Virus record (IMG/VR): IMGVR_UViG_3300034082_000452
Span: 1-28,778 of that record
Direction: 5' to 3' (one strand)
Origin: a virus
DNA: 28,778 bases
Part shown: positions 12,787 to 28,778 of the stretch, piece by piece
How the letters are laid out: each line of letters opens with the position of its first letter
Numbering within the stretch: the first letter of the stretch is position 1
Program-made: the position numbers and the translations under genes
Notes under the pieces: model-generated
What the model saw: only the letters and a program-made list of their open reading frames with translations
The model's database searches: none
What the model was told of the DNA's origin: nothing

Positions 12787-13125
12787 ATGATTAAAGGTAT
12801 CGCAAATAGTAGATATATTCATGTAATGTCAAATTACGCACCATATATCAACAATGGTGGACAATCGGCTGGTGAGATGCGTTATAATACATCAAATCAA
12901 TTAGTCGAAGTGTACAATGGCAATATATGGCAAAACATTAGTGAGCATATAACTATTAATCTAACTCCCGACGCAGAAGAAGCTATTCAGTGGGCTACTA
13001 TTAAGATGCAGGAAGAGTCCGCGCTTAAAGCTAAGTTGGAGAAATACCCAACACTTAAATCAGCTTACGAACAGTTTAAGATGATAGAAGTGTTGGTCTA
13101 CGAGGAAGAAAAAAGTGGCACATGA
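12787..13125 (+). CDS. Unknown small phage protein between clamp and DpdA-like gene
   Basis: A protein of 112 residues that I do not recognise by function. The N-terminal half is strand- and turn-rich (PYINNGGQSAG, MRYNTSNQLVEVYNG), a phrase style often seen in phage tail or fibre tips, while the C-terminal half is helical and acidic (TPDAEEAIQWATIKM onward). It has no cysteine, signal peptide or membrane segment. Its ATG touches the clamp stop codon directly, and its 3' end overlaps the DpdA-like gene by 11 bases, so it sits inside a transcriptional unit with both. A virion role is conceivable, but the context is replication and DNA modification. Confidence 0.7.
   Translation: MIKGIANSRYIHVMSNYAPYINNGGQSAGEMRYNTSNQLVEVYNGNIWQNISEHITINLTPDAEEAIQWATIKMQEESALKAKLEKYPTLKSAYEQFKMIEVLVYEEEKSGT
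13102..13106 (+). promoter_or_regulatory. Ribosome site deciding the GTG start of the DpdA-like gene
   Basis: GAGGA ends eight bases before a GTG at 13115. No ATG is available at a suitable distance and the protein aligns naturally from this point, so GTG is the likely start. Confidence 0.6.
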
Positions 13126-14677: not shown

Positions 14678-14859
14678 TGGAACGTATTCAATTAGAAGAT
14701 GAATTAGCAGAACTAGAACAAGTTCATCGAAAACTTGACGAAAACATCGAACGAGGTTATACTAGTTATATGGACGATGCTAGTCTAGGTAAAATGAAGC
14801 AAGAAAAATTAATAGTTAAACGCTCAATCGAAACCATTAGGAAAAAATTAGGTCTATGA
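14677..14859 (+). CDS. Small helical YdcH/DUF465-like protein
   Basis: A protein of 60 residues that is a single helical hairpin: an LEDELAELEQVHRKLDENI helix, a short turn with SYMDDASLG, then a basic helix KQEKLIVKRSIETIRKKL. The spacing H-x2-L-x3-I, then L-x2-K-x-EKL-x-IK, matches the DUF465/YdcH family of small bacterial proteins, whose function is not established. GGAGG precedes the start, which overlaps the DpdA-like stop by one base (TAATG), and its stop overlaps the next start (ATGA). Translation is thus coupled to the transglycosylase. Confidence 0.65.
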   Translation: MERIQLEDELAELEQVHRKLDENIERGYTSYMDDASLGKMKQEKLIVKRSIETIRKKLGL

Positions 14860-15395
14860 AACGTGAATACACATCAGGTACCGCAGAAGCAATTACATTC
14901 TTTGTAGGTGACGAAATTGAACGCACACCTGCTTACGGCATGCGTACACTATTTGTAGTAGGTGTACATGAACCGCAGGATATCTTAGAGATGTTACAGA
15001 CTAAATTGGCCTACAGTGATATTGAACATATTTACTTTGGTGCTAATCAAAGTTTTAATCCTAGTGGCACTAACGATGTAGCAACATGGCGGCCTTGGGA
15101 AGATATGATCTATGTCTTGCTAGAGAATGACTACTGGTGTACCTTAGACTTTGATGTACGAGACGTAGAAGGCCTACTTGAAAGTGGCTTAATTGAAAAA
15201 CGTAGATTCATTCCGCAGATTTCGGTAAAATTGCCCTATTTACAACAGCTAGGTTATAATGCTACAATTAAGTTAGACGATGTAGACTTTGCGGCTACAA
15301 ATCCGGGCGTATGGTGCCATAAACTTAACACCCTATTAGATGAAAACAAATTCACTAACTGGGACCAATATGGTAAAGATGAGATTATCAAATGA
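14856..15395 (+). CDS. Unknown protein in the DpdA-QueD cluster
   Basis: A protein of 179 residues without a recognised family. It is an alternating strand and helix protein: ITFFVGDEIE, RTLFVVGV, DIEHIYFGANQ, a tryptophan-rich middle (WRPWEDMIYVLLENDYW), CTLDFDV, and FIPQISVKLPYL followed by YNATIKLDDVDF. This layout suggests an alpha/beta or half-barrel fold, but no catalytic motif is clear. The two cysteines (both after W) do not form a cluster motif. It is linked by ATGA overlaps to the genes on both sides, between the DUF465-like protein and the QueD-like protein, so it may belong to the 7-deazaguanine pathway. No signal peptide is present. Confidence 0.75.
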   Translation: MKREYTSGTAEAITFFVGDEIERTPAYGMRTLFVVGVHEPQDILEMLQTKLAYSDIEHIYFGANQSFNPSGTNDVATWRPWEDMIYVLLENDYWCTLDFDVRDVEGLLESGLIEKRRFIPQISVKLPYLQQLGYNATIKLDDVDFAATNPGVWCHKLNTLLDENKFTNWDQYGKDEIIK

Positions 15396-15835
15396 TACAA
15401 GCAGAACGTGATCAATTAGAACGTATTAAACATTCAGCTCAAAAAAAGATATGGGTTACTTTTCAAAAGGAAGGTGTACACTGCTATCCAGCGGCAGCTA
15501 CAGACCCAACACTAGCCACAGGAGATCAATATGATGTTTCGTTTCTTGCTAGTCCTCATCGTCATATGTTTCATTTTCGCGTGGCCATTAGCGTTGAGCA
15601 TAATGACAGAGACATCGAGTTTATCCAGTTTAAACGTTGGCTGGTAAATCTTTATGTAAATAATACATTACAATTAGATTTTAAGAGCTGTGAAATGATT
15701 TCAGATGATCTGTATACACAGATTGCTTCAAAGTATCCCAATCGCGATGTTTGGATCGATGTATCCGAAGATGGCGAGAACGGAAGTTATGCTGAGTACA
15801 ACTGTACTCGTCCTCATCAAACTGTCACTATTTAA
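15392..15835 (+). CDS. queD: QueD-like (6-pyruvoyl-tetrahydropterin synthase fold) protein
   Basis: A protein of 147 residues. HRHMFHFRVAISVEH (56-70) matches the HGH-x-Y/F-x-V segment that binds zinc in QueD/PTPS enzymes; H56 and H58 would be two zinc ligands and H30 a candidate third. IEFIQFKRWL corresponds to the conserved DF-x-x-LK helix, FKSCEMISDDL to the helix beginning with E, and VWIDVSEDGENGSYAEY to the final strand with its active-site glutamate. QueD converts dihydroneopterin triphosphate to 6-carboxy-tetrahydropterin, the step between FolE and QueE, both encoded in this window. The sequence is divergent: the catalytic Asp-His (LDH) pair of standard QueD is not obvious. It lies downstream of the DpdA-like gene in the same overlapping unit. 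Confidence 0.58.
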   Translation: MIQAERDQLERIKHSAQKKIWVTFQKEGVHCYPAAATDPTLATGDQYDVSFLASPHRHMFHFRVAISVEHNDRDIEFIQFKRWLVNLYVNNTLQLDFKSCEMISDDLYTQIASKYPNRDVWIDVSEDGENGSYAEYNCTRPHQTVTI

Positions 15836-15847
15836 GGAGATTTTTCC

Positions 15848-16039
15848 GTGGCAAAACTCACTAAGTTAGCAAAAGTAAGTGAATCAATTACCGTCAATCG
15901 TTACGACAATGGCTGGATGGTTGAAGTAAGTGGTCGTAATAAAAAAGAAGATTGGGCAAATACAAAGATTCTGTGTAATACAGAAGATGAATTAATTGCG
16001 TTAATCAAAGAATACAACATAATGGACATTGATAGCTAA
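15848..16039 (+). CDS. Small unknown phage protein, GTG start
   Basis: A protein of 63 residues from GTG, chosen because AAGGAG (15834-15839) ends eight bases upstream and no ATG lies near. The sequence has an ITVNRYDNGWMVEVSGR beta hairpin, a DDW-like KEDWANTKILC strand, and a C-terminal helix. The style is that of a compact conserved protein of T4-like phages, function unknown. It has one cysteine and no membrane segment. It is followed after 11 bases by another GTG-started small gene with its own AAGGAG. Confidence 0.7.
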   Translation: MAKLTKLAKVSESITVNRYDNGWMVEVSGRNKKEDWANTKILCNTEDELIALIKEYNIMDIDS

Positions 16040-16050
16040 GGAGAAATAAA

Positions 16051-16290
16051 GTGGCATCACAACCAGTTTGGCTTAAGAAATACCTTCGTATGACCCCAGA
16101 GGTCTCAAAAATCTACAACGACTTGGATGCGTGGATGAACTACTGTCGCTTCCGTATGATCAAGTTTGATGAAGCAGACTTGTACAAGTCACCTGAGTAT
16201 CGCGAGTGGCAAGAACGCCGCAAAAAACGCCAACAATGGCAACAACGTAATGGTCAGCCTGCTGGTTATCAAGGCAGGAATCCACGATAA
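16051..16290 (+). CDS. Small basic unknown phage protein, GTG start
   Basis: A protein of 79 residues. GTG is the likely start, with AAGGAG (16038-16043) seven bases upstream. The N-terminal part (VWLKKYLRMTPEVSKIYNDLDAW) is helical, then RFRMIKFDEADLY-x-SPEYREW, and the tail is very basic and glutamine-rich (RRKKRQQWQQRN), which suggests contact with nucleic acid. I recall similar short proteins in T4-like marine phages, annotated as hypothetical. Its stop overlaps the ATG of the glycosyltransferase by one base, so it leads into the sugar gene cassette. Confidence 0.68.
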   Translation: MASQPVWLKKYLRMTPEVSKIYNDLDAWMNYCRFRMIKFDEADLYKSPEYREWQERRKKRQQWQQRNGQPAGYQGRNPR

Positions 16291-17360
16291 TGACTGTATT
16301 TCTAGTTGATCTAGAAAGCGTTGAAACACGGTACACGGGCCAGTGGAAGGCTCATGTACCCAAACTATTGGAAGAACACGGACATGACGTATATGTTATC
16401 GCAGGACCACATGATATTCCTGCTGCTACTACCCCTGGCGCTTTTCTTAACTTTGGCGGCACTAACGTCTATAAGGCCAATCAAGTCGAGCAAATGGCTA
16501 GACTATTTACGGAAGGAAGGGTTGCTAAGGGTGATCACTTCATTTTTACTGACGCTTGGCATCCTGGGATTATTAACCTTAAGTATATGTCCGAGCTGTT
16601 GGGCATACCCGTCACTATTCACGCCTTGTGGCACGCTGGCAGTTACGACCCACAAGACTTCTTAGGACGTCTTATTGGCGATAAGCCCTGGGTTAGACAC
16701 AGTGAGAAAGCATTCTTTAGTGCTATAGATCATAACTACTTTGCCACAGACTTTCATATTAATATGTTTATTGAAAATCTATTAGATGAAGAACCTCGTA
16801 ATGGTCGCATGGGATATATGCCCATTAGTAAGATTGTACGTACAGGTTGGCCTATGGAATATATGCCAGAAACTATTACGCCGTACAAAGCCAAGAAGCG
16901 TGACTTAATCTTATTCCCACATCGTATAGCACCAGAGAAGCAGGTAGAAATCTTTAAGGACCTAGCACAAGCACTGCCGCAGTATGAGTGGATTGTTTGC
17001 CAGGAACAGAACTTAAGTAAAGAAGCGTATCATACCTTACTAGGTGAAGCTAAGTTAGTGTTTAGTGCCAATCTACAAGAAACTCTAGGCATTAGTATGT
17101 ATGAAGGTGCTATTGTAGATGCTATTCCTATGGTACCAGATAGACTATCATACAAGGAAATGTATGCTGAGATATGGAAGTATCCTAGTGAGTGGACTGA
17201 ATCCTACAGTAGTTTCTTACACAATAAACAAGCACTATGCGATAAGATTGTAGAGTTCATGACCGACTATGATGAATACGCTAAGTTAGTTCCACAACAG
17301 GCACGTAGTCTACATCACGATTTCTTTTCAGCAACTGAATTGCTAAAGAATATTAAATGA
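16290..17360 (+). CDS. GT-B glycosyltransferase (GT4-like)
   Basis: A protein of 356 residues with two Rossmann-like halves. The N-terminal half (VFLVDLESVETRYTGQW, then GHDVYVIAG and a domain with HALWHAGSYD) would bind the acceptor. The C-terminal half has the GT4 pattern: a LILFPHRIAPEKQVEIFKDL strand-helix and an EX7E motif (E264, E272, within QETLGISMYEGA) that normally contacts the sugar nucleotide in retaining enzymes. It heads a run of six genes joined by ATGA overlaps that includes a UDP-sugar dehydrogenase-like protein, two SDR proteins and a cupin. The acceptor may be modified phage DNA, a virion protein or a host glycan; the sequence does not say. Confidence 0.8.
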   Translation: MTVFLVDLESVETRYTGQWKAHVPKLLEEHGHDVYVIAGPHDIPAATTPGAFLNFGGTNVYKANQVEQMARLFTEGRVAKGDHFIFTDAWHPGIINLKYMSELLGIPVTIHALWHAGSYDPQDFLGRLIGDKPWVRHSEKAFFSAIDHNYFATDFHINMFIENLLDEEPRNGRMGYMPISKIVRTGWPMEYMPETITPYKAKKRDLILFPHRIAPEKQVEIFKDLAQALPQYEWIVCQEQNLSKEAYHTLLGEAKLVFSANLQETLGISMYEGAIVDAIPMVPDRLSYKEMYAEIWKYPSEWTESYSSFLHNKQALCDKIVEFMTDYDEYAKLVPQQARSLHHDFFSATELLKNIK

Positions 17361-17938
17361 GTTTTGATGCTATAGCAAAATTTGAGCGGGCACTAGGTGA
17401 GTTCACTGGTGCCCCTTTTGTTGTCATGACTGATTCGTGTACACACGCAATTGAGATGTGTCTGCGTTACGATCAAGTCAAACGTACAATGTTCCCAGCA
17501 TTTACATATTTGAGTATTCCAATGACCATGCGTAAGCTAGATATTTCATTTGGCTATACAGGTAACAATGAATGGATTGGCGAATATCAATTCCTAACCA
17601 CACGCATTTGGGACAGCGCACGTCTACTACAATTGGGTATGTATCGCAAAGGTCAGATGCAGTGTTTGAGCTTTGGCTATAGCAAACCATTAGACATTGG
17701 TCGTGGTGGTGCTATCTTATTAGATGATGAGCAAGCATACAACAGACTTATACAGCAACGTAGTGATGGGCGCGATTTATCTATTAGTCCTTGGCAAGAC
17801 CAAAAGATATTCGAAGTAGGGTATCATTACAGACCAACTATAGAAGAAGCAGTACGTGGATTAGAATTATTAGCTAACGTAGATCAGTCAGTTAAATATC
17901 ATAAATATCCAGACTTAAGAGAGATTGTAATATTATGA
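17357..17938 (+). CDS. Half-length DegT/DnrJ-type aminotransferase-like protein
   Basis: A protein of 193 residues resembling the large domain of sugar aminotransferases of the DegT/DnrJ/EryC1 family, which use PLP to put an amino group on a keto sugar. Visible landmarks: FVVMTDSCTHAIEM (phosphate-binding helix), MFPAFTYLSIPM (the substrate strand), IWDSAR (D86, the PLP ring-nitrogen aspartate) and SFGYSKPLDIGRGGAILLDD, where K110 matches the PLP Schiff-base lysine. Family members are about 370 residues, so the C-terminal small domain is missing or reduced, yet the frame ends cleanly in an ATGA overlap, which argues against a frameshift. It may act as a minimal enzyme or have another role. 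Confidence 0.7.
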   Translation: MSFDAIAKFERALGEFTGAPFVVMTDSCTHAIEMCLRYDQVKRTMFPAFTYLSIPMTMRKLDISFGYTGNNEWIGEYQFLTTRIWDSARLLQLGMYRKGQMQCLSFGYSKPLDIGRGGAILLDDEQAYNRLIQQRSDGRDLSISPWQDQKIFEVGYHYRPTIEEAVRGLELLANVDQSVKYHKYPDLREIVIL

Positions 17939-18720
17939 AAATAGGAATTATTGGTAAGGGTGTAGTTGGTAACGCAGTTTTTTGGGGGTTAGAATCAGTT
18001 GGCTATAAATTATCATACTACGATAAAAAAGAAGAAAACTCAAATATGGTTGATGTGCTTGACACAGAGATTGTGTTTATTTGTGTTCCAACCAATAGTA
18101 ACACTGACGGAACTTGTAACATTAGTATTGTAGAAGACACAGTCAGTCAACTTAGTCTATTAGATTATACAGGAATTATTGCTATAAAAAGCACAGTTAT
18201 ACCAGGTACAACTGAAAAGTTAATTAATAAATATCCTAGTCGCACTATCTGTTTTGTTCCAGAATTTTTAAAGGAACTTTCTGCTATATCCGACTTTGTA
18301 GATAATCACGATGTTTTGATTGTAGGCACTCATGATAAAACGGTCTATGATACCATAGTTAAATGTCACAGTCATTTACCTAACTCTACAGTACAGGTCA
18401 CTCCTACCGAAGCAGAAATAGCAAAATATTTTAGCAACGTGTATAACTCATTACGGATAACGTTTGCCAATGGTATGTTTGAAGTATGTAGATCGTTAGG
18501 CGCAGATTATCAACAGGTATTTAATGCCTGTATTAAACGCTCAACGATTAGCCCCGAGTATCTACGATGCTCCGAACACCTAAGAGGGTTTGGCGGGCAC
18601 TGTTTACCTAAAGATAGTCAAGCATTTGCTATTTTAATTAAAGATCTAGGATTAGATCATATAACATTATTTGACTCAATCGTTAATGATAATAGTCACC
18701 ACCTAAAGGATGTTAAATGA
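17935..18720 (+). CDS. Short UDP-glucose/GDP-mannose dehydrogenase-like protein
   Basis: A protein of 261 residues. GIIGKGVVGNAV (4-15) is the NAD-binding Rossmann motif; IVFICVPTNSNTDGTC and STVIPGTTEKL are typical of UDP-sugar 6-dehydrogenases; E161, K164 and N168 (in EIAKYFSNVYNSLRITFAN) and C223 (GFGGHCLPKD) match the catalytic lysine, asparagine and cysteine region. The known reaction is two-step NAD-dependent oxidation of the sugar-nucleotide C6 to a uronic acid. Standard enzymes have about 430 residues; the C-terminal UDP-binding domain is absent. The gene is intact, with ATGA overlaps on both sides, so this looks like a natural short form. Confidence 0.8.
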   Translation: MKIGIIGKGVVGNAVFWGLESVGYKLSYYDKKEENSNMVDVLDTEIVFICVPTNSNTDGTCNISIVEDTVSQLSLLDYTGIIAIKSTVIPGTTEKLINKYPSRTICFVPEFLKELSAISDFVDNHDVLIVGTHDKTVYDTIVKCHSHLPNSTVQVTPTEAEIAKYFSNVYNSLRITFANGMFEVCRSLGADYQQVFNACIKRSTISPEYLRCSEHLRGFGGHCLPKDSQAFAILIKDLGLDHITLFDSIVNDNSHHLKDVK

Positions 18721-19619
18721 AAATCTTAGTTACAGGTGCCGGTGGATTACTTGGCTACGAAATCTGTCAGCAACTATTACAAGGCGACAATGACATCTGG
18801 ACTGTGGATAATTACTATAGATCAGAATCTGTTCCTAGTGGATCAACATTTCTAAAAATTGATCTGTCAGATGCTACACAATTAGATCGATTGCCTACAG
18901 ACTTTGACTATATCTATCACTTCTCAGCTATCAACGGCACTGATAGATTTTATAAGATTCCCAATAAGGTATTACAAAATAACATTGTTGGAGATTTAAA
19001 TATTTTTGAATTTGCTGGTAAATGTACTAAACTAAAACGATTAGTATATGCTAGCAGTAGTGAAGTAGTTGCGGAAGATCCAGAACAACCAGTACCAGAA
19101 AAAGTCAACATAACAATAAATGACATACACAATGCTCGATGGAGTTATAGGTTAGCTAAAGTATGTTCTGAAAACTATCTGACTAACAGCAACTTACCAT
19201 GGTTGATAGTGCGTTACTTTAATGTTTATGGTGAACGCAGTCGCGATGGGCACTTTATCGATGATCAGATCCGCAAAATACAAAATAATGAATTTACAAT
19301 AATCGGGTCAAATGAATATAGAAGTTACTGTTATGTCACTGATGCTGTAAGTGCTACCATTGCTCTAGCATGTTTAGAGATACAAGATATTATAAACGTA
19401 GGAAATTCTGAACTGATTTCCATTGCCAAGGCGGCCGATACCATAGCCAAATTGCTAGGATATTCTGATGCCAATTGGAACGAAATATCTGGTCGTCCGG
19501 GCAGTACACTAGTGCGCCAGCCTAAGTTAGACAAACTGTACAGCTATCTTTCTGAATACAATCCTCGTACTTTCGAACAAGGCGTAGCACAGGTATTAAA
19601 AAATAGAGGACTAGTATGA
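18717..19619 (+). CDS. NAD-dependent sugar epimerase/dehydratase (extended SDR)
   Basis: A protein of 300 residues with the extended-SDR pattern: GAGGLLG (7-13) binds NAD; D31 closes strand 2; YASSSEVV (111-118) carries the catalytic serine; Y144 and K148 (YRLAK) are the catalytic pair. The RYFNVYGERSRDG segment and the C-terminal SGRPGST segment are those of sugar-nucleotide epimerases and dehydratases such as GalE- and RmlB-like proteins. It would act on a UDP- or dTDP-sugar in the cytoplasm. In the cassette it follows the UDP-sugar dehydrogenase-like gene and precedes a short SDR. Exact substrate and reaction are not decided by sequence. Confidence 0.85.
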   Translation: MKILVTGAGGLLGYEICQQLLQGDNDIWTVDNYYRSESVPSGSTFLKIDLSDATQLDRLPTDFDYIYHFSAINGTDRFYKIPNKVLQNNIVGDLNIFEFAGKCTKLKRLVYASSSEVVAEDPEQPVPEKVNITINDIHNARWSYRLAKVCSENYLTNSNLPWLIVRYFNVYGERSRDGHFIDDQIRKIQNNEFTIIGSNEYRSYCYVTDAVSATIALACLEIQDIINVGNSELISIAKAADTIAKLLGYSDANWNEISGRPGSTLVRQPKLDKLYSYLSEYNPRTFEQGVAQVLKNRGLV

Positions 19620-20233
19620 AGCACGTGTTTGTAACTGGTGGTTCTAGTGGCATTGGCCAAGCAATTTGTGAAGAGTTGCAACGTAGAGGCATTACTTATT
19701 ACGCTCCCACTAGAAAAGAACTTGATATGCGAGATTTTTTAAAGGTCGCAACTACTAATCTAACTGCTTATGATACAGTAATACACTGTGCTGGAGTAAA
19801 CTGCGGAAGTTATCTTGGATTTGAGAGCAATCCTGTTGAAAATCAAGTTGAACAAATTGATGTGAATTTTATCGCAGGGATAATGCTTATTAAAAATGTA
19901 GTTCAGCAAACTAACATCAAACGATTTATATACATCAGTTCTGACAGTTTTATAGTTAATAAACCATTTGGGGTCGTGTATTCTGCCAGTAAACTAGCAT
20001 TACAATTTACAGTAAATACGTTAAGATCATACTATACTAATATCAAATGGACCGAGGTATTAATTGGCCGTACTCGAACAAACTTATTATACAATAATTA
20101 TTTAGGAACTAGAACGCACGAGCAAGTTACAGAAGAATATAATGCTCTCTCTTGTTTGGAAGTGAGCCAAGTGGTTGATTTAATATTTAAAACAGTTAAC
20201 GAAGATTTAGATTATGTGGAACTAAGACCATGA
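19616..20233 (+). CDS. Short-chain dehydrogenase/reductase (SDR)
   Basis: A protein of 205 residues. TGGSSGIG (7-14) is the classical cofactor motif; HCAGV (57-61) corresponds to the conserved NAG/CAG; YISSDS (106-111) has the catalytic serine; Y122 and K126 (YSASK) complete the triad. The protein is slightly shorter than most classical SDRs (about 250). Its place among sugar-nucleotide genes with ATGA overlaps suggests reduction or epimerisation of a keto sugar, but classical SDRs act on many substrates. Confidence 0.82.
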   Translation: MKHVFVTGGSSGIGQAICEELQRRGITYYAPTRKELDMRDFLKVATTNLTAYDTVIHCAGVNCGSYLGFESNPVENQVEQIDVNFIAGIMLIKNVVQQTNIKRFIYISSDSFIVNKPFGVVYSASKLALQFTVNTLRSYYTNIKWTEVLIGRTRTNLLYNNYLGTRTHEQVTEEYNALSCLEVSQVVDLIFKTVNEDLDYVELRP

Positions 20234-20616
20234 ACGGAAAGATTGTAGTATTACAACCAGCAATTAACAAAACAACTATTACAGATGGGCGTGGAGCAAT
20301 TCTAAGTTTTATTCCATCGGCACCTGTATTAGAGTTCGTCTATCAAGTAACAAATGCTGGTTCTTCAAGAGGATATCATTATCATCCAGAGTTTGACGAA
20401 TACGTATTATTCACTGAAGGTGAAGGGGTGTATATAGAACAACTCGATGACGGCACAGATAGGTTTATCACTATTGGCCCAGGGGTGTGTGTTTATATAC
20501 CTTCAGGTGTTTATCACACATTCAATGCTATTACATTAATGAAGTCAGTTAGTCTACTAACTAAACCCTGGGATAGCTGTGAAAATCCTATCATTTTGAA
20601 AAAAGATAACGTATAA
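20230..20616 (+). CDS. Cupin-fold sugar isomerase-like protein
   Basis: A protein of 128 residues with a single cupin barrel: SRGYHYHPEFDEYVLFTEG holds the histidines and glutamate of cupin motif 1, and GPGVCVYIPSGVYHTFNA is motif 2. The RGYHYH phrase is like that of sugar-nucleotide 3,4-ketoisomerases (FdtA/WxcM type) and RmlC-related cupins. This is consistent with the last position in a sugar-nucleotide cassette. It overlaps the SDR gene by ATGA. The cassette ends here: a gap of 89 bases with a new promoter follows. Confidence 0.72.
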   Translation: MNGKIVVLQPAINKTTITDGRGAILSFIPSAPVLEFVYQVTNAGSSRGYHYHPEFDEYVLFTEGEGVYIEQLDDGTDRFITIGPGVCVYIPSGVYHTFNAITLMKSVSLLTKPWDSCENPIILKKDNV

Positions 20617-20622
20617 AATTCC

Positions 20623-20662
20623 TGTCAATGAGTTGACACGGCCTAAATAATCATGTTATACT
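20623..20662 (+). promoter_or_regulatory. Promoter for folE with an inverted repeat over the -35
   Basis: TTGACA (20633-20638) and TATACT (20657-20662) are 18 bases apart, a good sigma70-type match. TGTCAA (20623-20628) and the -35 TTGACA form a perfect six-base inverted repeat with a four-base centre, a possible operator. CTAAATA lies in the spacer. FolE starts at 20706. Confidence 0.65.
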
Positions 20663-20705
20663 AACTTATCAATTGCCAATCCACTGGCTTAACATCGGAG
20701 ACTAT

Positions 20706-21401
20706 ATGTCGAAATACAAAGTAAGCGAACATATTCGCAACAATCTAAAAGCATCAAACAAACGTTTCTGGGCAGGTGACAACATCTCAGAATACATCAC
20801 AGAAGAAAACAAAGAACTATTAATCGACGAAGCAACTGAAGCATTTGAAGCAGTGCTGGATACATTGTTAATTGATCGCGAAAACGATCCTAACAGTCAC
20901 GGTACAGCACGTAGACTAGCTAAGATGTACTTCAATGAGATCATGGCAGGTCGCTATGAACCTAATCCAGATGCTACAGCATTTCCAAATGACTCAGTAG
21001 ATCGTTATGAAGGTATGCTGGTAGTACGTAGCGAACTACGCAGTATGTGTAGTCATCACCATCAGCCAGTTAAAGGTGTTGCCTACATTGGTATTATTGC
21101 CGCTAGCAAACTAATCGGCTTATCTAAATACACACGTATCGCACAGTGGTGTGCTACACGTGGTACTCTACAAGAAGAACTATGTAACGATATCACACGT
21201 GAGATTATGAAAGCAACAGGCAGTGATAACGTAGCAGTCTACATTCAAGCCACACATGGTTGCTGTGAGAATCGTGGCATCATGGCACATAGTAGCCTAA
21301 CACAAACAACTGTTCTTAAGGGTGTTTTTAAGAATGATCCAGATGCTAAGAAAGAGTTCTTTGACAACATCAAACTACAACAAGAGTTTGCTCCTCGATA
21401 A
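20706..21401 (+). CDS. folE: GTP cyclohydrolase I
   Basis: 231 residues from the ATG at 20706, chosen over one at 20673 because GGAG (20697-20700) lies five bases before it and the promoter ends at 20662. The zinc site is C115, H118 and C187: CSHHHQP (115-121) and GCCENRG match the C-x-HH and C-x-x-RG motifs of FolE. The middle (GLSKYTRI, AQWCATRG) is the conserved core. FolE converts GTP to dihydroneopterin triphosphate, the first step in folate and 7-deazaguanine synthesis. With QueD-like and QueE in the window and a DpdA-like enzyme, the latter use is more likely. It is a single-gene unit between its own promoter and that of the protease. Confidence 0.93.
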   Translation: MSKYKVSEHIRNNLKASNKRFWAGDNISEYITEENKELLIDEATEAFEAVLDTLLIDRENDPNSHGTARRLAKMYFNEIMAGRYEPNPDATAFPNDSVDRYEGMLVVRSELRSMCSHHHQPVKGVAYIGIIAASKLIGLSKYTRIAQWCATRGTLQEELCNDITREIMKATGSDNVAVYIQATHGCCENRGIMAHSSLTQTTVLKGVFKNDPDAKKEFFDNIKLQQEFAPR

Positions 21402-21405
21402 CAAA

Positions 21406-21453
21406 GTGATTGACATTTTGGCAAAATGATGTTATTATGCTAGTGTCAATCAC
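21406..21453 (+). promoter_or_regulatory. Promoter with nested inverted repeats before the subtilase
   Basis: TTGACA (21410-21415) and TATTAT (21433-21438) are 17 bases apart. GTGATTGACA (21406-21415) and TGTCAATCAC (21444-21453) are a perfect ten-base inverted repeat around the promoter, and ATTTTGGCAAAAT (21415-21427) is a second palindrome within the spacer. This looks like a regulated promoter with operator sites. An AAAGGA ribosome site follows at 21462-21467. Confidence 0.65.
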
Positions 21454-21472
21454 AACTCTGTAAAGGATTAAC

Positions 21473-23515
21473 ATGAATAAGTTAGTAATAGCATTACTAG
21501 CGTCGGGTCTTTGGTCTTCTGTACAAGCAGAAACTTTAGATCTAACCCCATATAACACTGCTGAATACACAGCTAATACCATTAGCGCAGGTAAAACTAA
21601 CGATGACTTCCTAAGAGTTATCAATACCAGTTCAGCTTGGGCACGTGGCTACACAGGTAAAGGTAGTACCATTCTTATTATTGATAGTGGTATTAACGCC
21701 AATCATAAAGAATTTGCCGGCAGTATCCTGTTCCAAAAAGATTTTATTCGATCTAAAAACGGAATGATTGACGTAGTAGGTCATGGTACAGGACTAGCTG
21801 GTATTGCGGCTGCCAATTGGGATGGTGTTGGTATGGCGGGCGTAGCACCTGACGCTAGTTTAGCTATTGCCAAAGTTACTGATAGTGCTTCTTCATTTAA
21901 CTTTGTACAGGCACGTAACGCACTAGTTTGGGGTAACCAAATTGGTGCTGTGGTGGCGAATATTTCAGCAAACGTAACATACGACACTACCTACAATAAG
22001 AACTGGACTAAGTTAACGGACGGCACTTGGTATAATAAAGATCCGCGATATACTGGTAGATATTTTGGCGGTGACAATCCCTACACATGGGCAAGTGCGT
22101 TAGGCAAGGAAATGGTCCTAGTTAACAGTGCTGGTAACAGTGGTAAAGCGTACCCGCAACAACCCGGCACATTGGCCACAGCCACAGATGCTAGTGGTAA
22201 TTTAATATTAGGTGGCCAAGTATTGATTGTTGGTGCTTATGATATAACCAATAACAACATCGCAAGTTATAGTAATCGTGCCGGGCATGTTTGTCAAAGT
22301 GTAAGCGCAAGTGGTACCTGTGCTGACAAATATCGTGTTAGTCAATTCTATATTCTAGCACCAGGTAATGCGTTCACTGCTGACGATGTGGGCAATAACT
22401 ATGTTATTCAAACGGGTACTAGTCAAGCGGCGGCCGTAGTATCAGGAAGTGTAGCAGTTATTAATCAAATGTGGCCCTATATGAAAGGTGAAAACATTGT
22501 TAAACTGCTAACATCAACAGCAAATAAAAATATCGCAGGGTACACTCCGGATGTACACGGACAAGGTCTATTAGACTTAGAACGAGCCACACGTCCGTTT
22601 GGCAGTATAGGTATTCCAACTACCGGTCGCACAGGAAAGATTGCGCTTAATGGTGGGTTTAGTACTAACACATCAGGTGGTTTAAGTAGCATTAGCAGTA
22701 AGTTAAGCAGTGTAGTGGTCACCGACGAGTTTGATCGTGACTACCGTATAGATCTAAGCACAACTGCTAATAATAAACGTGCCCGTGCTGATTTCAATCC
22801 TATTGCCAAAGCACAGTTCTATGACAACTACAATCCGTATAATAAGTTAAACTTCTACTCATTTAGTGCTACTGTCCCCAGTGGCGAATATGATATCAAG
22901 TTGGCCGCAAATGACTATACAGGCACTGCTATGCTTGATGTAGGCAAGAATGTGGTAGTTGACAATGTAAAGTATCGTGTAGGCTTTGGTATGTTAAACG
23001 AACGTGATGCTTGGATGGGCAATAGCATCGGTGGTATGTTTGGGCAAGTGCGTGAAAGTTACACTCAATTTACCAACTTCAGTGGTAGTTATAACCTAAA
23101 TAAACAAGTAAGTGTGTTTGGTAGTGCTTGGTTAGGTTACACTACTGCCAACTTGGCCGCACAGGGTCTTGTGACTAACGTAGGCGACACACAGAGTTAC
23201 AGTTGGAATGCTGGTTTAGATTGGACCAAAGACTCGCATAGTATTGGTGCTACAGTAAGTCAACCAGTTACTGTGTACAAAGGTACAGTTAATGTGGCAC
23301 TACCAGTTAGCGTGTCAGCAAATGGTACTGTAAACTTTAGTAAAGAACGTGTAAGTATTGTGTCAAATGTAGTAGAGTATGACGTTGGTGCGTATTACAA
23401 ATACAAAGCCAAGGGCACTAACTTAATTGCCTATACTGAACATCAAATGAACTACTTAAATCAAGCAGGTGTTACAAATAACCAAATTGGGTTAGCATTA
23501 GCCAAGGAGTGGTAG
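21473..23515 (+). CDS. Secreted subtilisin-family (S8) protease with autotransporter-like C-terminus
   Basis: A protein of 680 residues. Residues 1-19 are a Sec signal peptide (MNKLVIALLASGLWSSVQA, cut before E20). The S8 catalytic residues are D71 (IIDSGIN), H104 (GHGTGLAG), the oxyanion N222 (SAGNSG) and S317 (GTSQAAA). Two cysteines, C274 and C283, could pair outside the cytoplasm. From about residue 375 to the end the protein is rich in alternating strands with serine, threonine, tyrosine and asparagine, and ends LALAKEW; a terminal aromatic residue is typical of outer-membrane beta barrels. The whole resembles autotransporter serine proteases of Gram-negative bacteria (SphB1/NalP type). 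An alternative is a soluble beta-domain. It has its own promoter with inverted repeats. A role at the host surface, such as processing of receptors, is inference. Confidence 0.88.
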   Translation: MNKLVIALLASGLWSSVQAETLDLTPYNTAEYTANTISAGKTNDDFLRVINTSSAWARGYTGKGSTILIIDSGINANHKEFAGSILFQKDFIRSKNGMIDVVGHGTGLAGIAAANWDGVGMAGVAPDASLAIAKVTDSASSFNFVQARNALVWGNQIGAVVANISANVTYDTTYNKNWTKLTDGTWYNKDPRYTGRYFGGDNPYTWASALGKEMVLVNSAGNSGKAYPQQPGTLATATDASGNLILGGQVLIVGAYDITNNNIASYSNRAGHVCQSVSASGTCADKYRVSQFYILAPGNAFTADDVGNNYVIQTGTSQAAAVVSGSVAVINQMWPYMKGENIVKLLTSTANKNIAGYTPDVHGQGLLDLERATRPFGSIGIPTTGRTGKIALNGGFSTNTSGGLSSISSKLSSVVVTDEFDRDYRIDLSTTANNKRARADFNPIAKAQFYDNYNPYNKLNFYSFSATVPSGEYDIKLAANDYTGTAMLDVGKNVVVDNVKYRVGFGMLNERDAWMGNSIGGMFGQVRESYTQFTNFSGSYNLNKQVSVFGSAWLGYTTANLAAQGLVTNVGDTQSYSWNAGLDWTKDSHSIGATVSQPVTVYKGTVNVALPVSVSANGTVNFSKERVSIVSNVVEYDVGAYYKYKAKGTNLIAYTEHQMNYLNQAGVTNNQIGLALAKEW

Positions 23516-23516
23516 T

Positions 23517-23852
23517 ATGAAATGGTTTGACAACTGGTTTTATAAACAGGCCAAAAAGGCTTGGGAGCGTGATCAGCGTATCGAAGATGACGGATGGGAT
23601 GAACCTAAGCGCGGCAGACTTGGCAGAGGTAACTCCACCCCTGTGGCTAGCTCTCGTAGAGTAGAACACAACTACGATGATCGAAGCGTTATTAATTTTA
23701 AAGTATACGGAGCCAACGGTGGTTTAATCGTAGAAACATCTCGTTACGATGATAAGACAGATAACGAACGCATCAAACGTTATGTAATTGAAGATGGAGC
23801 AAACATGGCAGAAAGCCTAAGCAAGATTGTTACCATGGAATACATGAGTTGA
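23517..23852 (+). CDS. Unknown small protein, first of a pair
   Basis: A protein of 111 residues with an N-terminal amphipathic, tryptophan-rich segment (MKWFDNWFYKQAKKAWERD), a basic low-complexity link (KRGRLGRGN), and a small beta domain with INFKVYGANGGLIVETSRYDD, then a C-terminal helix. The GG-x-x-x-ETxxxD phrase recurs in the next gene, suggesting that the two share a fold. AAGGAG precedes the ATG, which lies one base after the protease stop. Function not recognised. Confidence 0.68.
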   Translation: MKWFDNWFYKQAKKAWERDQRIEDDGWDEPKRGRLGRGNSTPVASSRRVEHNYDDRSVINFKVYGANGGLIVETSRYDDKTDNERIKRYVIEDGANMAESLSKIVTMEYMS

Positions 23853-24178
23853 TTAGCCTACCACAAGGTGTTACAGTAAACTATCCTGTTAAGATTATCA
23901 TAGATCAGTTATCTATAGAAATTTTTACTTGGTTTAGAGACATTGGCGGTAAGGTATGGATAGAAACTAAACCATTTGATCGCCGAGGTGTTGCTAGAGA
24001 AGAACCAATGGTTCAATACGGTAACAGTAAACCCTGTTACTACTTACAAGACGGTAGTAGTAATGTAATGCTAAACTTTAACGGAAAAGATGCTAGTGTA
24101 GCAACTATGTTTCTGTTAAGGTTTGATACACACGTAGTTTCACACAATTTAAGAGAGGCAGACAAATATGTCTATTGA
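23849..24178 (+). CDS. Unknown small protein, second of a pair, TTG start
   Basis: A protein of 109 residues. The likely start is TTG at 23849, overlapping the previous stop as TTGA; no ATG lies near the beginning of the open frame. It is strand-rich (PVKIIIDQLSIEIFTWF, GGKVWIETKPFDR, SNVMLNFNGKDA) with the GG-x-V-x-IET hairpin also seen in the preceding protein. No catalytic motif is evident. It overlaps the phosphoribosyltransferase gene by 11 bases. Confidence 0.62.
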   Translation: MISLPQGVTVNYPVKIIIDQLSIEIFTWFRDIGGKVWIETKPFDRRGVAREEPMVQYGNSKPCYYLQDGSSNVMLNFNGKDASVATMFLLRFDTHVVSHNLREADKYVY

Positions 24179-24662
24179 TAAAAAATATTATGAATATCTA
24201 CACATCCATGATATGGTTGCTAATATTGTATCTCAGATGTACAAGGACAATTGGCGTCCTGATTATATTGTAGGACTTACCCGCGGGGGATTAATTCCGG
24301 CAGTTATTATGAGCAACATCTATCATATTCCAATGGAGACACTAAAGGTTAGCCTACGTGACAGCGACACTGGTCCAGAAAGCAACTGCTGGATGAGCGA
24401 AGATGCTTACAACGGTAAAAACATTCTTATCTTAGATGATATTAATGATACCGGTGCTACATTAGATTGGATTATCAATGATTGGCAAAGCACTTGTCAT
24501 CCGTCTGATGCGCATTGGTCTAATGTTTGGGGTAACAATGTGCGCTTTGCTGTGCTAATTGATAACTTGAGTAGTAACTTTAGTCGTAAGGTCGACTACT
24601 CAGCTAAAGAGATTAACAAAGCAGAAAAAGATGTATGGATTGTATACCCTTGGGAAAGATAA
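24168..24662 (+). CDS. Phosphoribosyltransferase
   Basis: A protein of 164 residues. ILILDDINDTGATLD (86-100) is the PRPP-binding motif of type I phosphoribosyltransferases, and YIVGLTRGGLIPAVIMS (33-49) is the conserved first strand and loop. Such enzymes join a purine or pyrimidine base to PRPP or the reverse. The hood domain, which sets base specificity, is short and has VSLRDSD and a tryptophan-rich stretch that I cannot assign. It lies before mazG-like and queE genes, so nucleotide salvage during infection, or recycling of released guanine, is a fair inference. GAGAGG precedes the start. Confidence 0.82.
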   Translation: MSIDKKYYEYLHIHDMVANIVSQMYKDNWRPDYIVGLTRGGLIPAVIMSNIYHIPMETLKVSLRDSDTGPESNCWMSEDAYNGKNILILDDINDTGATLDWIINDWQSTCHPSDAHWSNVWGNNVRFAVLIDNLSSNFSRKVDYSAKEINKAEKDVWIVYPWER

Positions 24663-24696
24663 ACTTGACAATGTCTAAAGAGAGTAGTAAACTATA

Positions 24697-24969
24697 ATGA
24701 TTGCTAATAAAACACAAGAAGCATTAATCATCTTACAAGAAGAGTGCGCAGAAGTTATACAGGCCGCTAGTAAGATTTATCGCTTTGGATTAGATAATTC
24801 GCACAAGTCAGGGTCAACCCAGCGAGCTAATTTAGAAATGGAAATTGGTGATATGTTGGCACTTGTAGATATTTTAGTTGAGCAGGGTGTTATTGACCTA
24901 AATAACATTAATACTGCTAACGCAAATAAGAAAGAAAAACTTAAAATATGGTCAAAATTATATGAGTAA
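24697..24969 (+). CDS. mazG: MazG-like nucleotide pyrophosphohydrolase
   Basis: A protein of 90 residues, an all-alpha MazG-type NTP pyrophosphohydrolase. The metal-binding ExxE (E16, E19 in EECAEVIQ) and ExxD (E49, D52 in EIGDMLALVD) motifs are both present. The family cleaves NTPs or dNTPs to monophosphates; phage MazG proteins have been linked to nucleotide pools or alarmone levels. It overlaps queE by eight bases. A TTGACA at 24665 and TATAAT at 24693 are 22 bases apart, too far for a standard promoter, and the TATAAT overlaps the start codon. Confidence 0.82.
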   Translation: MIANKTQEALIILQEECAEVIQAASKIYRFGLDNSHKSGSTQRANLEMEIGDMLALVDILVEQGVIDLNNINTANANKKEKLKIWSKLYE

Positions 24970-25834
24970 ACTAAAAGTAAGTGAGATATTTTATAGTGCG
25001 CAAGGTGAAGGACGCTTCGTAGGTGTTCCTTCAGTTTTCTTACGTACATTTGGGTGTAACTTTAAATGCCCAGGATTTGGTGTGCCCAGAGGTCAAGCAA
25101 GTACAGAAGCAGATGAAGTTGCTAAAACTGTAGAACTTTATAGTCGCTATGAAGACTTGCCGTTAGTTAACACAGGTTGTGATAGCTATGCGTCATGGCA
25201 TCCTAAGTTCAAACACCTAAGTCCAACATATGATACTAGCGAAGTAGTTGAGCGTATGCTGGCATTAACGCCCAATAACCGTTGGCAACAGGCCAATGGC
25301 AATGATGTACACTTGGTCATCACAGGTGGTGAGCCACTACTAGGCTGGCAACGTAGTTATGGTGAATTGTTTGAACATGAGCGTATGCGGGACTTAAAGA
25401 ACATTACGTTTGAAACAAATGGTACTCAAGAACTAACCGACGAGTTCGGTGATGTGCTAGATGTATGGCAGTTTAGCAAGGAAAGTTTAGGTAACCGTGA
25501 ACTTACGTTTAGTGTTAGTGCTAAACTAAGCGCAAGTGGTGAAGCGTGGGCTGATGCTATTAAGCCAGAAATTGTAACTAGCTATCAAGAGTTTGGTACT
25601 ACATATCTTAAGTTTGTAGTAGAAAATCCTAAAGACTTCGATGAAGTTGATCGCGCAGTTGAAGCGTATAGATCAGCGGGCTTTACGGGTGTAGTTTATA
25701 TTATGCCCGTTGGTGGTGTTGTAAGTGTTTACAACGGCAACAAATTTAACGTAGCAGACGAAGCAATGTTACGTGGGTATTATTACAGCCCAAGATTACA
25801 CGTAGACTTATGGGGAAATTCATGGGGCAAATGA
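24962..25834 (+). CDS. queE: 7-carboxy-7-deazaguanine synthase (QueE), phage-type
   Basis: A protein of 290 residues. FYSAQGEGRFVGVPSVFLRT (10-29) is the diagnostic QueE N-terminus and ITGGEPLLGW is the SAM-binding GGE motif. QueE turns 6-carboxy-tetrahydropterin into 7-carboxy-7-deazaguanine by radical SAM chemistry. The cluster motif is odd: C32 and C36 (CNFKC) are present, but the residue two on from C36, normally the third cysteine, is F39 (CPGF). A further cysteine, C73 (TGCDSY), follows a 36-residue insertion and is the best candidate third ligand. QueE enzymes with unusual cysteine spacing are known. The gene is longer than bacterial queE (about 220-240 residues), mainly from this insert. 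It lies between mazG and a DUF2061 gene with overlaps at both ends. Confidence 0.9.
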   Translation: MSKLKVSEIFYSAQGEGRFVGVPSVFLRTFGCNFKCPGFGVPRGQASTEADEVAKTVELYSRYEDLPLVNTGCDSYASWHPKFKHLSPTYDTSEVVERMLALTPNNRWQQANGNDVHLVITGGEPLLGWQRSYGELFEHERMRDLKNITFETNGTQELTDEFGDVLDVWQFSKESLGNRELTFSVSAKLSASGEAWADAIKPEIVTSYQEFGTTYLKFVVENPKDFDEVDRAVEAYRSAGFTGVVYIMPVGGVVSVYNGNKFNVADEAMLRGYYYSPRLHVDLWGNSWGK

Positions 25835-26034
25835 CAGAAACACATAAACGTACACTAGTACGCATGCTCAGCTATCGCATCACTGCGTGGCTGTTTACAA
25901 TCTTTTGGACTTATCTATACACAGGAGATCTAGCAGGCAGTACAGGGTTTGCTACCTTGTTACACATATTATTAAGTGTTGATTATTATATACACGAGCG
26001 TATTTGGTTAAAAATTAAATGGGGAATTAAATGA
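25831..26034 (+). CDS. DUF2061-like small membrane protein
   Basis: A protein of 67 residues from the ATG at 25831, which overlaps the queE stop as ATGA and gives the usual basic N-terminus (THKRTLVRMLSYRITAWLF). Earlier in-frame ATGs at 25810 and 25822 are possible but lie inside queE. The pattern K-R-x-L-x-R-x-x-x-x-R-I-x-x, a membrane segment, YLYTGD, a second membrane segment, and DYYIHERIW at the end fits the DUF2061 family of small two-helix inner-membrane proteins with unknown function. It overlaps metK by ATGA. Confidence 0.75.
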   Translation: MTETHKRTLVRMLSYRITAWLFTIFWTYLYTGDLAGSTGFATLLHILLSVDYYIHERIWLKIKWGIK

Positions 26035-27131
26035 GTTATTTGTTTACCAGTGAAAGTGTTAGTGAAGGACATCCAGATAAAGTAGCAGACGCTATCAGTG
26101 ATGCTATTTTAGATTTGGTTATGGTACACGAAGATACCAGCATGCGTGTTGCTTGCGAAACTCTAGTTACTACCAATCGTGTTATTATTGCCGGAGAATA
26201 TAAAAATGTTGCCCTACATCAAGCGCAGATTGAAAGTGCCGTACGCAAAGTCATTAAAGACATTGGCTACGAACAAACAGGGTTTGATTGGCGTACAGTT
26301 GAGATCACAAATCTATTACATGGGCAAAGTGCGGACATTGCACTAGGCACAGACACATTTGGTGCTGGTGACCAAGGACTAATGTTTGGCTATGCTACAA
26401 ACAAAACTCCTAACTACATGCCGCCAACTATCTACTACAGTCACTTGATTGTAAAAGAACTAGCACGTCAACGCAACGGTGATCAAACTTGGTTAGGTCC
26501 AGATGCTAAGTCACAAGTAACAATTGAATTTAACGATGATCATTCTATTGCTCGTATTGCTAAGATTGTGTGCTCAACTCAACATAGTGAAGACACAAGT
26601 ATTGAACTAGTACGCAGTATGGTAGAGCTATATATTCGTCAGGTAATTCCGGCAGAACTATTAGTTAATACAGAGTTCTTAATTAACCCAACTGGCCGTT
26701 TTGTTATTGGTGGTCCAGATGGTGATACAGGACTTACAGGACGTAAGATCATTGTAGATACCTACGGTGGTAGTTGCCCACATGGTGGTGGTGCGTTTAG
26801 TGGCAAGGATCCTACTAAAGTAGATCGTTCAGCCGCTTATATGGCTCGCTACCTAGCTAAGAATATTGTAGCCAGTGGCAAAGCAACTCACGCTACTGTA
26901 CAATTATCCTATGCTATTGGAGTCGAACAGCCGATGAGTGTGTATGTTGATAGCGACGGAAATAATTTTGAACTTACCTCATGGATAACTACTAATGTAG
27001 ACCTAACTCCTAGAGGCATTATTAATAGATTTAAACTATTCCGCCCTATTTACAGCTCTACTACTAACTACGGACACTTTGGTAAACCTGGGTTACCATG
27101 GGAAGAGTTAGATTTATTTGAGGATCAATAA
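26031..27131 (+). CDS. metK: S-adenosylmethionine synthetase
   Basis: A protein of 366 residues (bacterial MetK is about 384). FTSESVSEGHPDKVADAISD holds the ATP/metal site (H14, D16, K17); GAGDQGLMFGYA is the first MetK signature; GGGAFSGKDPTKVDRSAAY is the second, with the catalytic lysine and P-loop-like phosphate site. It makes SAM from methionine and ATP in the cytoplasm. All signature residues that I can see are kept, so it should be active. It lies two genes after queE in an overlapping unit, and the window also encodes four other radical SAM proteins, one with a methyltransferase domain, which suggests that the phage supplies its own SAM. Confidence 0.95.
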   Translation: MSYLFTSESVSEGHPDKVADAISDAILDLVMVHEDTSMRVACETLVTTNRVIIAGEYKNVALHQAQIESAVRKVIKDIGYEQTGFDWRTVEITNLLHGQSADIALGTDTFGAGDQGLMFGYATNKTPNYMPPTIYYSHLIVKELARQRNGDQTWLGPDAKSQVTIEFNDDHSIARIAKIVCSTQHSEDTSIELVRSMVELYIRQVIPAELLVNTEFLINPTGRFVIGGPDGDTGLTGRKIIVDTYGGSCPHGGGAFSGKDPTKVDRSAAYMARYLAKNIVASGKATHATVQLSYAIGVEQPMSVYVDSDGNNFELTSWITTNVDLTPRGIINRFKLFRPIYSSTTNYGHFGKPGLPWEELDLFEDQ

Positions 27132-27511
27132 TGTTTGATAAAATTAAAAATTTATTTAAAAAGCCAGAGCCAATTAAGTCTGAACCTAAGCCCAAAAAAC
27201 TCTCACCCAAAGAAGCAGCAACTGCCAAAGGTGAGCCATGGGTAGAAATTGTTAGTATGGATCTAGATCCCGCTGACCCAGGTAATGGAGCATTTGAACT
27301 AGACTGGAATGATAAGTTTGTAGCAAATCTAATTCGCAACGGCTATCAAGGCAAAACAGATCAAGACATTGTAGATAACTGGTTCAAAACAGTATGTCGT
27401 AATGTAGTACTTGAAACTTGGGAACAGGACCAAGCGGACCCTGAAAAACGTCAACAGCAAGAATATAATAAACGCCGTGATCTAGGCAACGGCAGAACGG
27501 AAGTAAGTTGA
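27131..27511 (+). CDS. Unknown conserved phage-type protein
   Basis: A protein of 126 residues with a charged, proline- and lysine-rich N-terminus (FKKPEPIKSEPKPKKLSPKE), then a compact core: PWVEIVSMDLDPADPGNGAF, ELDWNDKFVANLIRNGYQG, VDNWFKTVCRNVVLETWEQD. I recall this core in hypothetical proteins of T4-like cyanophages and other marine phages, where its function is not known. No catalytic motif or signal peptide is seen. Its start overlaps the metK stop (TAATG), and its stop overlaps a TTG start for the next gene. Confidence 0.75.
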   Translation: MFDKIKNLFKKPEPIKSEPKPKKLSPKEAATAKGEPWVEIVSMDLDPADPGNGAFELDWNDKFVANLIRNGYQGKTDQDIVDNWFKTVCRNVVLETWEQDQADPEKRQQQEYNKRRDLGNGRTEVS

Positions 27512-28158
27512 TTCTATATGTAAATGGTGATAGCCATAGCTACGGCACAGATGCCGGTGGCCCAAAGTTTAGTTACGGTCAACGATTGGCTGATCATTTA
27601 AAAGCAGAATTTGTCTGCCATGCTAGATCAGGTGCGAGCAACGCACGTATTATTAGAACTACTCGAGAGTATCTTGCTGATAATAAGCCAGATTTTATAA
27701 TTATTGGATGGAGTACTTGGGAACGAGAAGAATGGGAATTTAATGGTCATTATTTTGATGTAAACGGATCGGGCTATCAAGTATTACATAAAGATTTAGA
27801 AAACAGATATAAAGAATGGGTAGTAACCACAGCCACCAATTGGCGGGCACACGAACAGACTGCACACAAAACGATCTGGGACTTTCACCAAGAATTAGAG
27901 CAGATGAATATACCGCACTTATTCTTTAATTGCTATTCATACTTTGAAATCATCGGTAAAACTGATTATCCTAAACATGATTGGGGCACTAGTTACCTTG
28001 CTCCATATGATAAAAATCAAACATATTACTATTGGTTAGAATCGCAGGGGTATACACCAAGTAACCCGGCGTTTTTCCATTACGGGCCAGATGCTCATCG
28101 AGCATGGGCTAATTTTCTCTTGACAAAACTCACAAATGAAAGTATAATTACAACATGA
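27508..28158 (+). CDS. SGNH/GDSL hydrolase-like protein, TTG start
   Basis: A protein of 216 residues. The likely start is TTG at 27508, overlapping the previous stop; it leads straight into the first strand, ILYVNGDSHSYG, in which S9 of GDSH matches the nucleophile serine of SGNH hydrolases. PDFIIIGWSTWEREEW occupies the place of the third strand, with the usual GxN block not clear. HYGPDAHRAWA near the C-terminus supplies the D-x-x-H catalytic pair region (D and H in PDAH). Such enzymes are esterases or deacetylases of glycans and lipids. No signal peptide is present. The phage substrate is unknown. A promoter for the next gene lies inside its 3' end. Confidence 0.7.
   Translation: MILYVNGDSHSYGTDAGGPKFSYGQRLADHLKAEFVCHARSGASNARIIRTTREYLADNKPDFIIIGWSTWEREEWEFNGHYFDVNGSGYQVLHKDLENRYKEWVVTTATNWRAHEQTAHKTIWDFHQELEQMNIPHLFFNCYSYFEIIGKTDYPKHDWGTSYLAPYDKNQTYYYWLESQGYTPSNPAFFHYGPDAHRAWANFLLTKLTNESIITT
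28120..28148 (+). promoter_or_regulatory. Consensus sigma70-type promoter before the 5'-3' exonuclease
   Basis: TTGACA (28120-28125) and TATAAT (28143-28148) are perfect hexamers with a 17-base spacer, inside the end of the preceding gene. The predicted transcription start falls at about 28155, the A of the next ATG, so this promoter would make a leaderless or almost leaderless message. Confidence 0.6.
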
Positions 28159-28778
28159 GATACTTAATCGTAGATGCAGCAAATACATTTTTCCGTGCTA
28201 GACACAGCGCACATAGACAAAGCGATACTTGGGATAAGTTAGGTTTTGCTATACACGTTACACTGGCTAGTGTAAACAAAGCATGGCGTGATCAAAAGGC
28301 TGATCATGTTATATTCTGTTTTGAAGGTCGCAGTTGGCGTAAGGACTTTTACACTCCCTACAAGGCTAATCGTGCTGTAGCCCGTGCGGCTAAAACAGAA
28401 TCAGAGCAAGAAGAAGAACAACTGTTCTGGGACGCCTTTGACGCACTTAAGATATTTGTTACCGAAAAGACGAACTGTACAGTGTTACAGCATGGTAACC
28501 TAGAAGCAGATGATCTTATTGCGGGTTGGATACAAACACATCCAAATGATCATCATACTATTGTAAGTAGTGACACAGACTTTTATCAGTTACTTAATAG
28601 TAATGTTGTTCAGTATAACGGCATTGCTGATGAGTTACACACCTTAGAAGGTATCTTTGATAAGAAGGGCAAACTTGTACTAGACAAGAAAACTAAAGAG
28701 CCTAAGAAGATTCCTAACCCTAAGTTCATCTTGTTTGAAAAGTGTATGCGTGGTGACCCTACAGATAACATCTTTAGT
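28155..28778 (+). CDS. rnh: RNase H / 5'-3' exonuclease (T4 rnh-like), 3' end missing
   Basis: 208 residues are visible before the window ends; T4 RNase H has 305. This is a flap-endonuclease-family protein that removes RNA primers and 5' flaps during lagging-strand synthesis. Metal-binding landmarks: VDAANTFFRARH (6-17), FCFEGRSWRKDFYTPYKANR (the DNA-binding arginine/lysine patch), LEADDLIAGW, VSSDTDFYQL and RGDPTDNI at the edge. The ATG overlaps the previous stop (ATGA) and has no good Shine-Dalgarno sequence. Translation could come from coupling with the upstream gene or from a leaderless message, given the promoter at 28120-28148. It completes a replication set with the polymerase and clamp. 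Confidence 0.92.
   Translation, partial: MRYLIVDAANTFFRARHSAHRQSDTWDKLGFAIHVTLASVNKAWRDQKADHVIFCFEGRSWRKDFYTPYKANRAVARAAKTESEQEEEQLFWDAFDALKIFVTEKTNCTVLQHGNLEADDLIAGWIQTHPNDHHTIVSSDTDFYQLLNSNVVQYNGIADELHTLEGIFDKKGKLVLDKKTKEPKKIPNPKFILFEKCMRGDPTDNIFS

Follow-up and report, generated by a model that had tools for sequence, protein, structure and literature searches.

A phage-borne family of autotransporter-like subtilases with a predicted outer-membrane beta-barrel

Bacterial subtilase autotransporters and their phage counterpart

Subtilase autotransporters such as Ssp, NalP, SphB1 and EprS, described in Serratia, Neisseria, Bordetella and Pseudomonas, respectively, are composed of a signal peptide, an N-terminal S8 passenger and a C-terminal beta domain, and the best studied of them, NalP and SphB1, cleave surface proteins (PMC9977779). 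The same arrangement is found in a protein of 680 amino acids encoded by the window, which denotes here the whole stretch of 28,778 nucleotides that was analysed (positions 1 to 28,778 of the IMG/VR virus record IMGVR_UViG_3300034082_000452). Unlike the bacterial subtilase autotransporters, the family to which this protein belongs is encoded by phages. Further differences concern lipidation, since NalP and SphB1 are lipidated whereas the window protein lacks a lipobox and some of its phage relatives carry one, and the type of barrel, which in the bacterial S8 autotransporters L208, L210 and L212 is of the PF03797 type and in the phage proteins belongs to another, unnamed family. No account of a phage subtilase autotransporter was found in the one open library that was searched, and a survey of 224 jumbo phages makes no mention of subtilases (PMC7824862).

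The initial annotation had read a signal peptide, a full S8 triad, a beta-rich C-terminus and a terminal tryptophan from this gene, all of which are present in the following features:

21410..21438, plus strand, sigma70-like promoter TTGACA-17-TATTAT, 11 of 12 positions matching, with the start codon about 60 nt downstream
21463..21467, plus strand, Shine-Dalgarno sequence AAGGA, read directly from the sequence
21473..23515, plus strand, phage subtilase with predicted outer-membrane beta-barrel, 680 amino acids (open reading frame, Pfam, AlphaFold2 model)
21473..21532, plus strand, Sec-type signal peptide, about residues 1-20 (sequence; low-pLDDT helix 2-18 in the model)
21656..22531, plus strand, Peptidase_S8 catalytic domain, residues 62-353 (PF00082, E 1.3e-30)
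21683..21685, plus strand, codon of catalytic Asp71, invariant
21782..21784, plus strand, codon of catalytic His104, invariant
22421..22423, plus strand, codon of catalytic Ser317, invariant
22598..22858, plus strand, linker, residues 376-462, with the KLSSVxxxDxFxRDY motif (410-424) and helix 443-459 (alignment)
22862..23512, plus strand, predicted beta-barrel of about 12 strands, residues 464-680, W680 last (AlphaFold2, hhalign)

Protease domain, export signals and the C-terminal domain

Translation starts at an ATG codon, and the protein is organized in the order Sec-type signal peptide, Peptidase_S8, linker, short helix and a beta-rich C-terminus that extends to W680. An AlphaFold2 model built with 84 relatives in the alignment has a pLDDT of 90.4 and a pTM of 0.85, and an autotransporter-like architecture of the window protein is thereby strongly supported at the level of prediction. 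Assignment to peptidase family S8, with proteolysis itself as the predicted activity, follows from the domain score (107 bits against a curated cut-off of 21.8 for PF00082), from the triad and from the predicted fold. D71, H104 and S317, together with the oxyanion residue N222, are invariant (100%) among 43 non-redundant relatives, and residues 29-374 of the model adopt the subtilisin fold (VIA-align Z 38.9 over 268 residues, rmsd 1.8). Among PDB sequences, the best match is to the Ssp passenger from Serratia, for which the structural Z is 36.7; in the Foldseek and VIA-align comparisons with the PDB the matches are filled by the protease domain and the barrel is barely probed. The model NF051851, built on the autotransporter EprS, matches all 42 members scanned, with a match in the window protein that spans the protease part and lies far below the cut-off of that model. 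A full-length structural match (E 1.6e-54, TM 0.71) was obtained with A0A6J5TBB6 of an uncultured Caudovirales phage, which evidently belongs to the same family and whose annotation, "Peptidase S8/S53 domain containing protein", is a domain name only, without a described function.

The first 20 residues of the window protein, MNKLVIALLASGLWSSVQA, followed by ETLD, have the form of a Sec signal peptide, and a signal-peptide-like N-terminus is found in 86 of 90 relatives by a simple heuristic rather than a dedicated predictor. A heuristic scan of the N-termini recognized a lipobox in about 17 of the 90; none is present in the window protein, whose signal region contains no cysteine. Four relatives (L040, L047, L055 and L191) combine a lipoprotein signal LTACGGGG with long N-terminal extensions and are reminiscent of lipidated bacterial subtilase autotransporters. 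Nine others (L004, L005, L006, L022, L025, L026, L027, L028 and L030), with proteins of about 760-833 amino acids, have, between the signal peptide and the protease, helical repeats rich in alanine (type EEVxxAxAAAxARxxAARAAILAEQARQ), the copy number of which seems variable.

The region that the initial annotation had singled out for barrel prediction, residues 375-680, proved to consist partly of linker, and the predicted barrel is confined to residues 464-678, where the model contains a beta-meander of about 12 strands with helix 443-459 just before strand 464. Structure modelling thus yielded a long meander ending in a beta-signal in place of a soluble C-terminal domain. In the Foldseek library of viral structures, phage autotransporter beta-domain proteins and porins rank next after subtilases. 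The alternation of interface hydrophobicity along strand residues exceeds that of shuffled strands (p 0.0085), with an amphipathicity that is only moderate. The last residue of 95 distinct relatives is F in 84, W in 3 and Y in 1, and two end in FD; the terminal F or W of 87 of these 95 constitutes a putative outer-membrane beta-signal. With a barrel of this kind fused to it, the protease is probably displayed at the surface of infected Gram-negative cells.

No match to PF03797, the classical autotransporter beta-domain, was obtained in the window protein or in the 42 members scanned, and profile comparison of the phage C-terminus with the PF03797-type barrels of L208, L210 and L212 gave nothing (probability 0.3). 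A search of PDB sequences with the barrel profile returned chance matches only and no sequence relative with a solved structure. X25, DUF1269 and Pam3 gp18 were rejected as identities of the C-terminus, with Pfam scores that lie below the cut-off and differ between members. The barrel domain appears to represent a protein family missing from Pfam.

Relatives of this domain do occur in bacteria. The profile of the phage C-terminus aligns, through to the final residue, with the C-terminal domain of secreted subtilases from bacteria (hhalign E 1.3e-18, 181 columns), and hmmsearch with this profile detects one of them, L211, at 81.5 bits. Proteins of the L211 type (L211, L213, L214, L215 and L209), encoded on plasmids of Thioalkalivibrio, Pelagibacterium, NT-25 and Sphingomonas, share with the phage proteins the order signal or lipobox, S8, LSSV...D.F.RD motif and the same C-terminal domain, with the linker motif present in L211 as LSSVAAFDQFGRDF, a SQPxxVxxGxxxLxxPxG motif within the C-terminal domain and F as the last residue of most; no Pfam C-terminal domain was matched in them either. 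The term autotransporter-like chosen in the initial annotation fits this situation, because the C-terminus is not of the PF03797 type, yet is homologous to the C-terminal domain of other bacterial secreted subtilases. The L211-type proteins are more distant than any phage member, and the 55 phage rows are grouped in a single clade, separate from all bacterial ones (SH-aLRT 99), in a tree whose small bacterial sampling (five L211-type and three PF03797-type rows) and partly long branches do not fix the direction or the date of transfer.

Distribution, genomic position and promoter of the gene

Homologs were found at more than 90 non-redundant viral loci, on contigs of up to 353 kb. An initial screen of viral contigs yielded 9 relatives, and queries with alignments yielded 72, 79 and 80 loci, among which several contigs recur. 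Once duplicates had been merged, the comparison comprised 95 distinct proteins in which a triad could be recognised, and gene neighbourhoods were analysed for 92 sources, one of them the window. A full-length relative was not found in 50,697 deposited phages, where the matches, mostly in Bacillus phages, cover the protease region only. Close pairs have a dN/dS of about 0.05-0.18, whether computed over the entire gene or over the protease or C-terminal part separately, which indicates purifying selection and hence maintenance of both parts. In L007 (388-2531) the homolog is split into two frames near residue 311, either by an assembly frameshift or as a broken gene. The family is real and widespread, borne by a large group of uncultured T4-like and giant phages, and combines an autotransporter-like design with a barrel domain that is not of the classical Pfam type.

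The existence of bacterial relatives might raise the suspicion of a misassembled host fragment, which the initial annotation itself had considered, or of a recent chance capture of a host gene. This is contradicted by L001, a separate assembly from another sample that is collinear with window positions 20501-28778 at 99.6% over 8278 bp and so confirms the integrity of the contig at the gene, and by dozens of further contigs that share this gene order. In the more distant L002, L003, L012 and L036, the gene neighbourhood is largely retained in a similar order, with DNA identities that are mostly 65-86%. With a common gene order at over 90 loci, a single phage clade apart from the bacterial rows and long-term purifying selection, misassembly or recent capture is rejected as having a negligible probability. 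A scan of genome contigs with two short peptide patterns revealed two partial S8 matches only, and two patterns as short as these leave room for close relatives in bacteria.

A T4-type major capsid protein (gp23, PF07068) is encoded by 15 of 20 larger contigs and a terminase by 13 of 20. The DNA polymerase of the window is closest to those of the jumbo phages Phosso (52.6%) and Atu_ph07 (47.0%), which infect Sinorhizobium and Agrobacterium, respectively, a kinship of polymerases that carries no host assignment for the window phage. Across the 92 sources, the FolE (47/47), DpdA-like (47/47) and glycosyltransferase-like (54/54) genes are always located upstream of the subtilase and the QueE (63/63) and 5'-3' exonuclease (50/50) genes always downstream, in every case on its strand. 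The position of the subtilase is fixed, between FolE/DpdA and QueE, among replication and DNA-modification genes and outside the tail module. The corresponding FolE-QueE stretch of Phosso contains three hypothetical genes, and no protease is annotated in it. Phosso and Atu_ph07 are the nearest cultured phages by DNA polymerase; their S8 genes are located elsewhere in the genome and match the protease part only.

One of these, Atu_ph07 gp329, is an S8 protease of 1251 amino acids without signal peptide and barrel end, and S8 proteases of other phages that are devoid of export features in this manner make it conceivable that the window protein is likewise associated with the virion or processes it. 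Such a role is rejected as very improbable: almost every member has a signal peptide and 17 have a lipobox, and the terminal aromatic residue, the beta-meander and the location of the gene outside the structural module also speak against it.

Several further observations concern the surroundings of the gene. A small gene (window 23517-23852) lies 3' of the subtilase, but 5' of it in L002, L003 and L012, which indicates that the subtilase moved by one gene within the block. The conserved block of DpdA-like transglycosylase, FolE and QueE lies beside nucleotide-sugar genes in the window (12055-28778) and in many relatives, and suggests 7-deazaguanine DNA modification. Three consecutive radical-SAM-type genes of one sequence cluster occupy window 3661-7157, and a radical-SAM/methyltransferase-like fusion follows the polymerase at 9895-11982. 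On G003, the 343-kb phage contig of L009, a separate open frame of 665 amino acids contains a true PF03797 domain (46782-47351).

A promoter match of at least 10 of 12 positions within 100 nt upstream is present in 54 of 89 relatives (61%), compared with 15.7% of the remaining genes at these loci and 4.5% of shuffles, which amounts to an about 4-fold enrichment over the neighbours. This enrichment of sigma70-like promoters suggests transcription by the host RNA polymerase and hence early expression. A perfect 10-bp dyad, GTGATTGACA...TGTCAATCAC, surrounds the -10 region (window 21406-21453), and dyads of 9-13 bp with differing sequences occupy the same place in L002, L003, L067 and L110. Such dyads, found at 5 of 49 promoters and in 0.9% of shuffles, could be operators or leader hairpins.

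The timing bears on whether the protease might act late, destabilising the envelope by surface proteolysis and thereby aiding lysis or the dispersal of progeny from aggregates. The predicted outer-membrane location would suit such a role in release; however, the early-type promoter match, the position among replication genes and the lack of recognised lysis genes adjoining the subtilase make it quite improbable.

Candidate roles at the host surface

The best explanation, which we regard as fairly probable, is that the phage encodes an autotransporter-like protease for display at the cell surface, where it trims proteins of the host. According to this model, the host RNA polymerase would transcribe the subtilase gene from its own sigma70-type promoter, the protein would exit the cytoplasm via the host Sec pathway, and the host BAM machinery would insert the C-terminal barrel in the outer membrane via the aromatic beta-signal, so that the subtilisin domain would reach the outside of the infected cell, either anchored or released. 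What was observed comprises the gene with its promoter match, its active-site residues and predicted fold, its homology and conservation, and its genomic setting; export route, surface exposure and early timing are derived here from knowledge of the family. The displayed protease may then cleave outer-membrane or surface proteins of the host, and trimming of receptors or adhesins would prevent progeny from being re-adsorbed to the infected cell or debris and would keep rival phages out. Surface cleavage by NalP and SphB1 together with the early-type promoter makes surface trimming the likeliest action, with chances that are evenly balanced, and control of re-adsorption or superinfection the likeliest gain, which as a specific purpose is tentative.

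The same architecture would also serve a surface-bound or released protease that digests extracellular proteins or antimicrobial peptides instead of receptors, and would in this way feed a long jumbo-phage infection or shield that cell up to the point of lysis. The large size of the phages and the many metabolic genes in the same region are in keeping with this possibility, which is nevertheless considered unlikely, as neither a peptide transporter nor a peptidase was seen in the vicinity of the gene in the window and the best-studied bacterial relatives act on surface proteins (PMC9977779). Nutrient supply, peptide defence and release are all weaker rivals than surface trimming. Points that count against the best explanation itself are the lack of PF03797, the failure to find a sequence relative of the barrel among solved structures, the moderate amphipathicity of the strands and the absence of the gene from Phosso and Atu_ph07, the nearest cultured phages. 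The broader proposal that a T4-like/jumbo lineage carries, as standard equipment, an early surface subtilase on a non-PF03797 barrel, which would trim the host against re-adsorption or superinfection, is possible and falls somewhat short of an even chance.

Phage factors known to mediate superinfection exclusion are mostly small membrane proteins, lipoproteins and glycan-modifying enzymes. A conserved phage protease acting outside the infected cell would, if true, represent a different means, namely an enzyme that reaches the outside through host-assisted autotransport and removes surface proteins there. The family supplies many sequences for direct tests of what looks like a common but undescribed phage route to the remodelling of the host surface.
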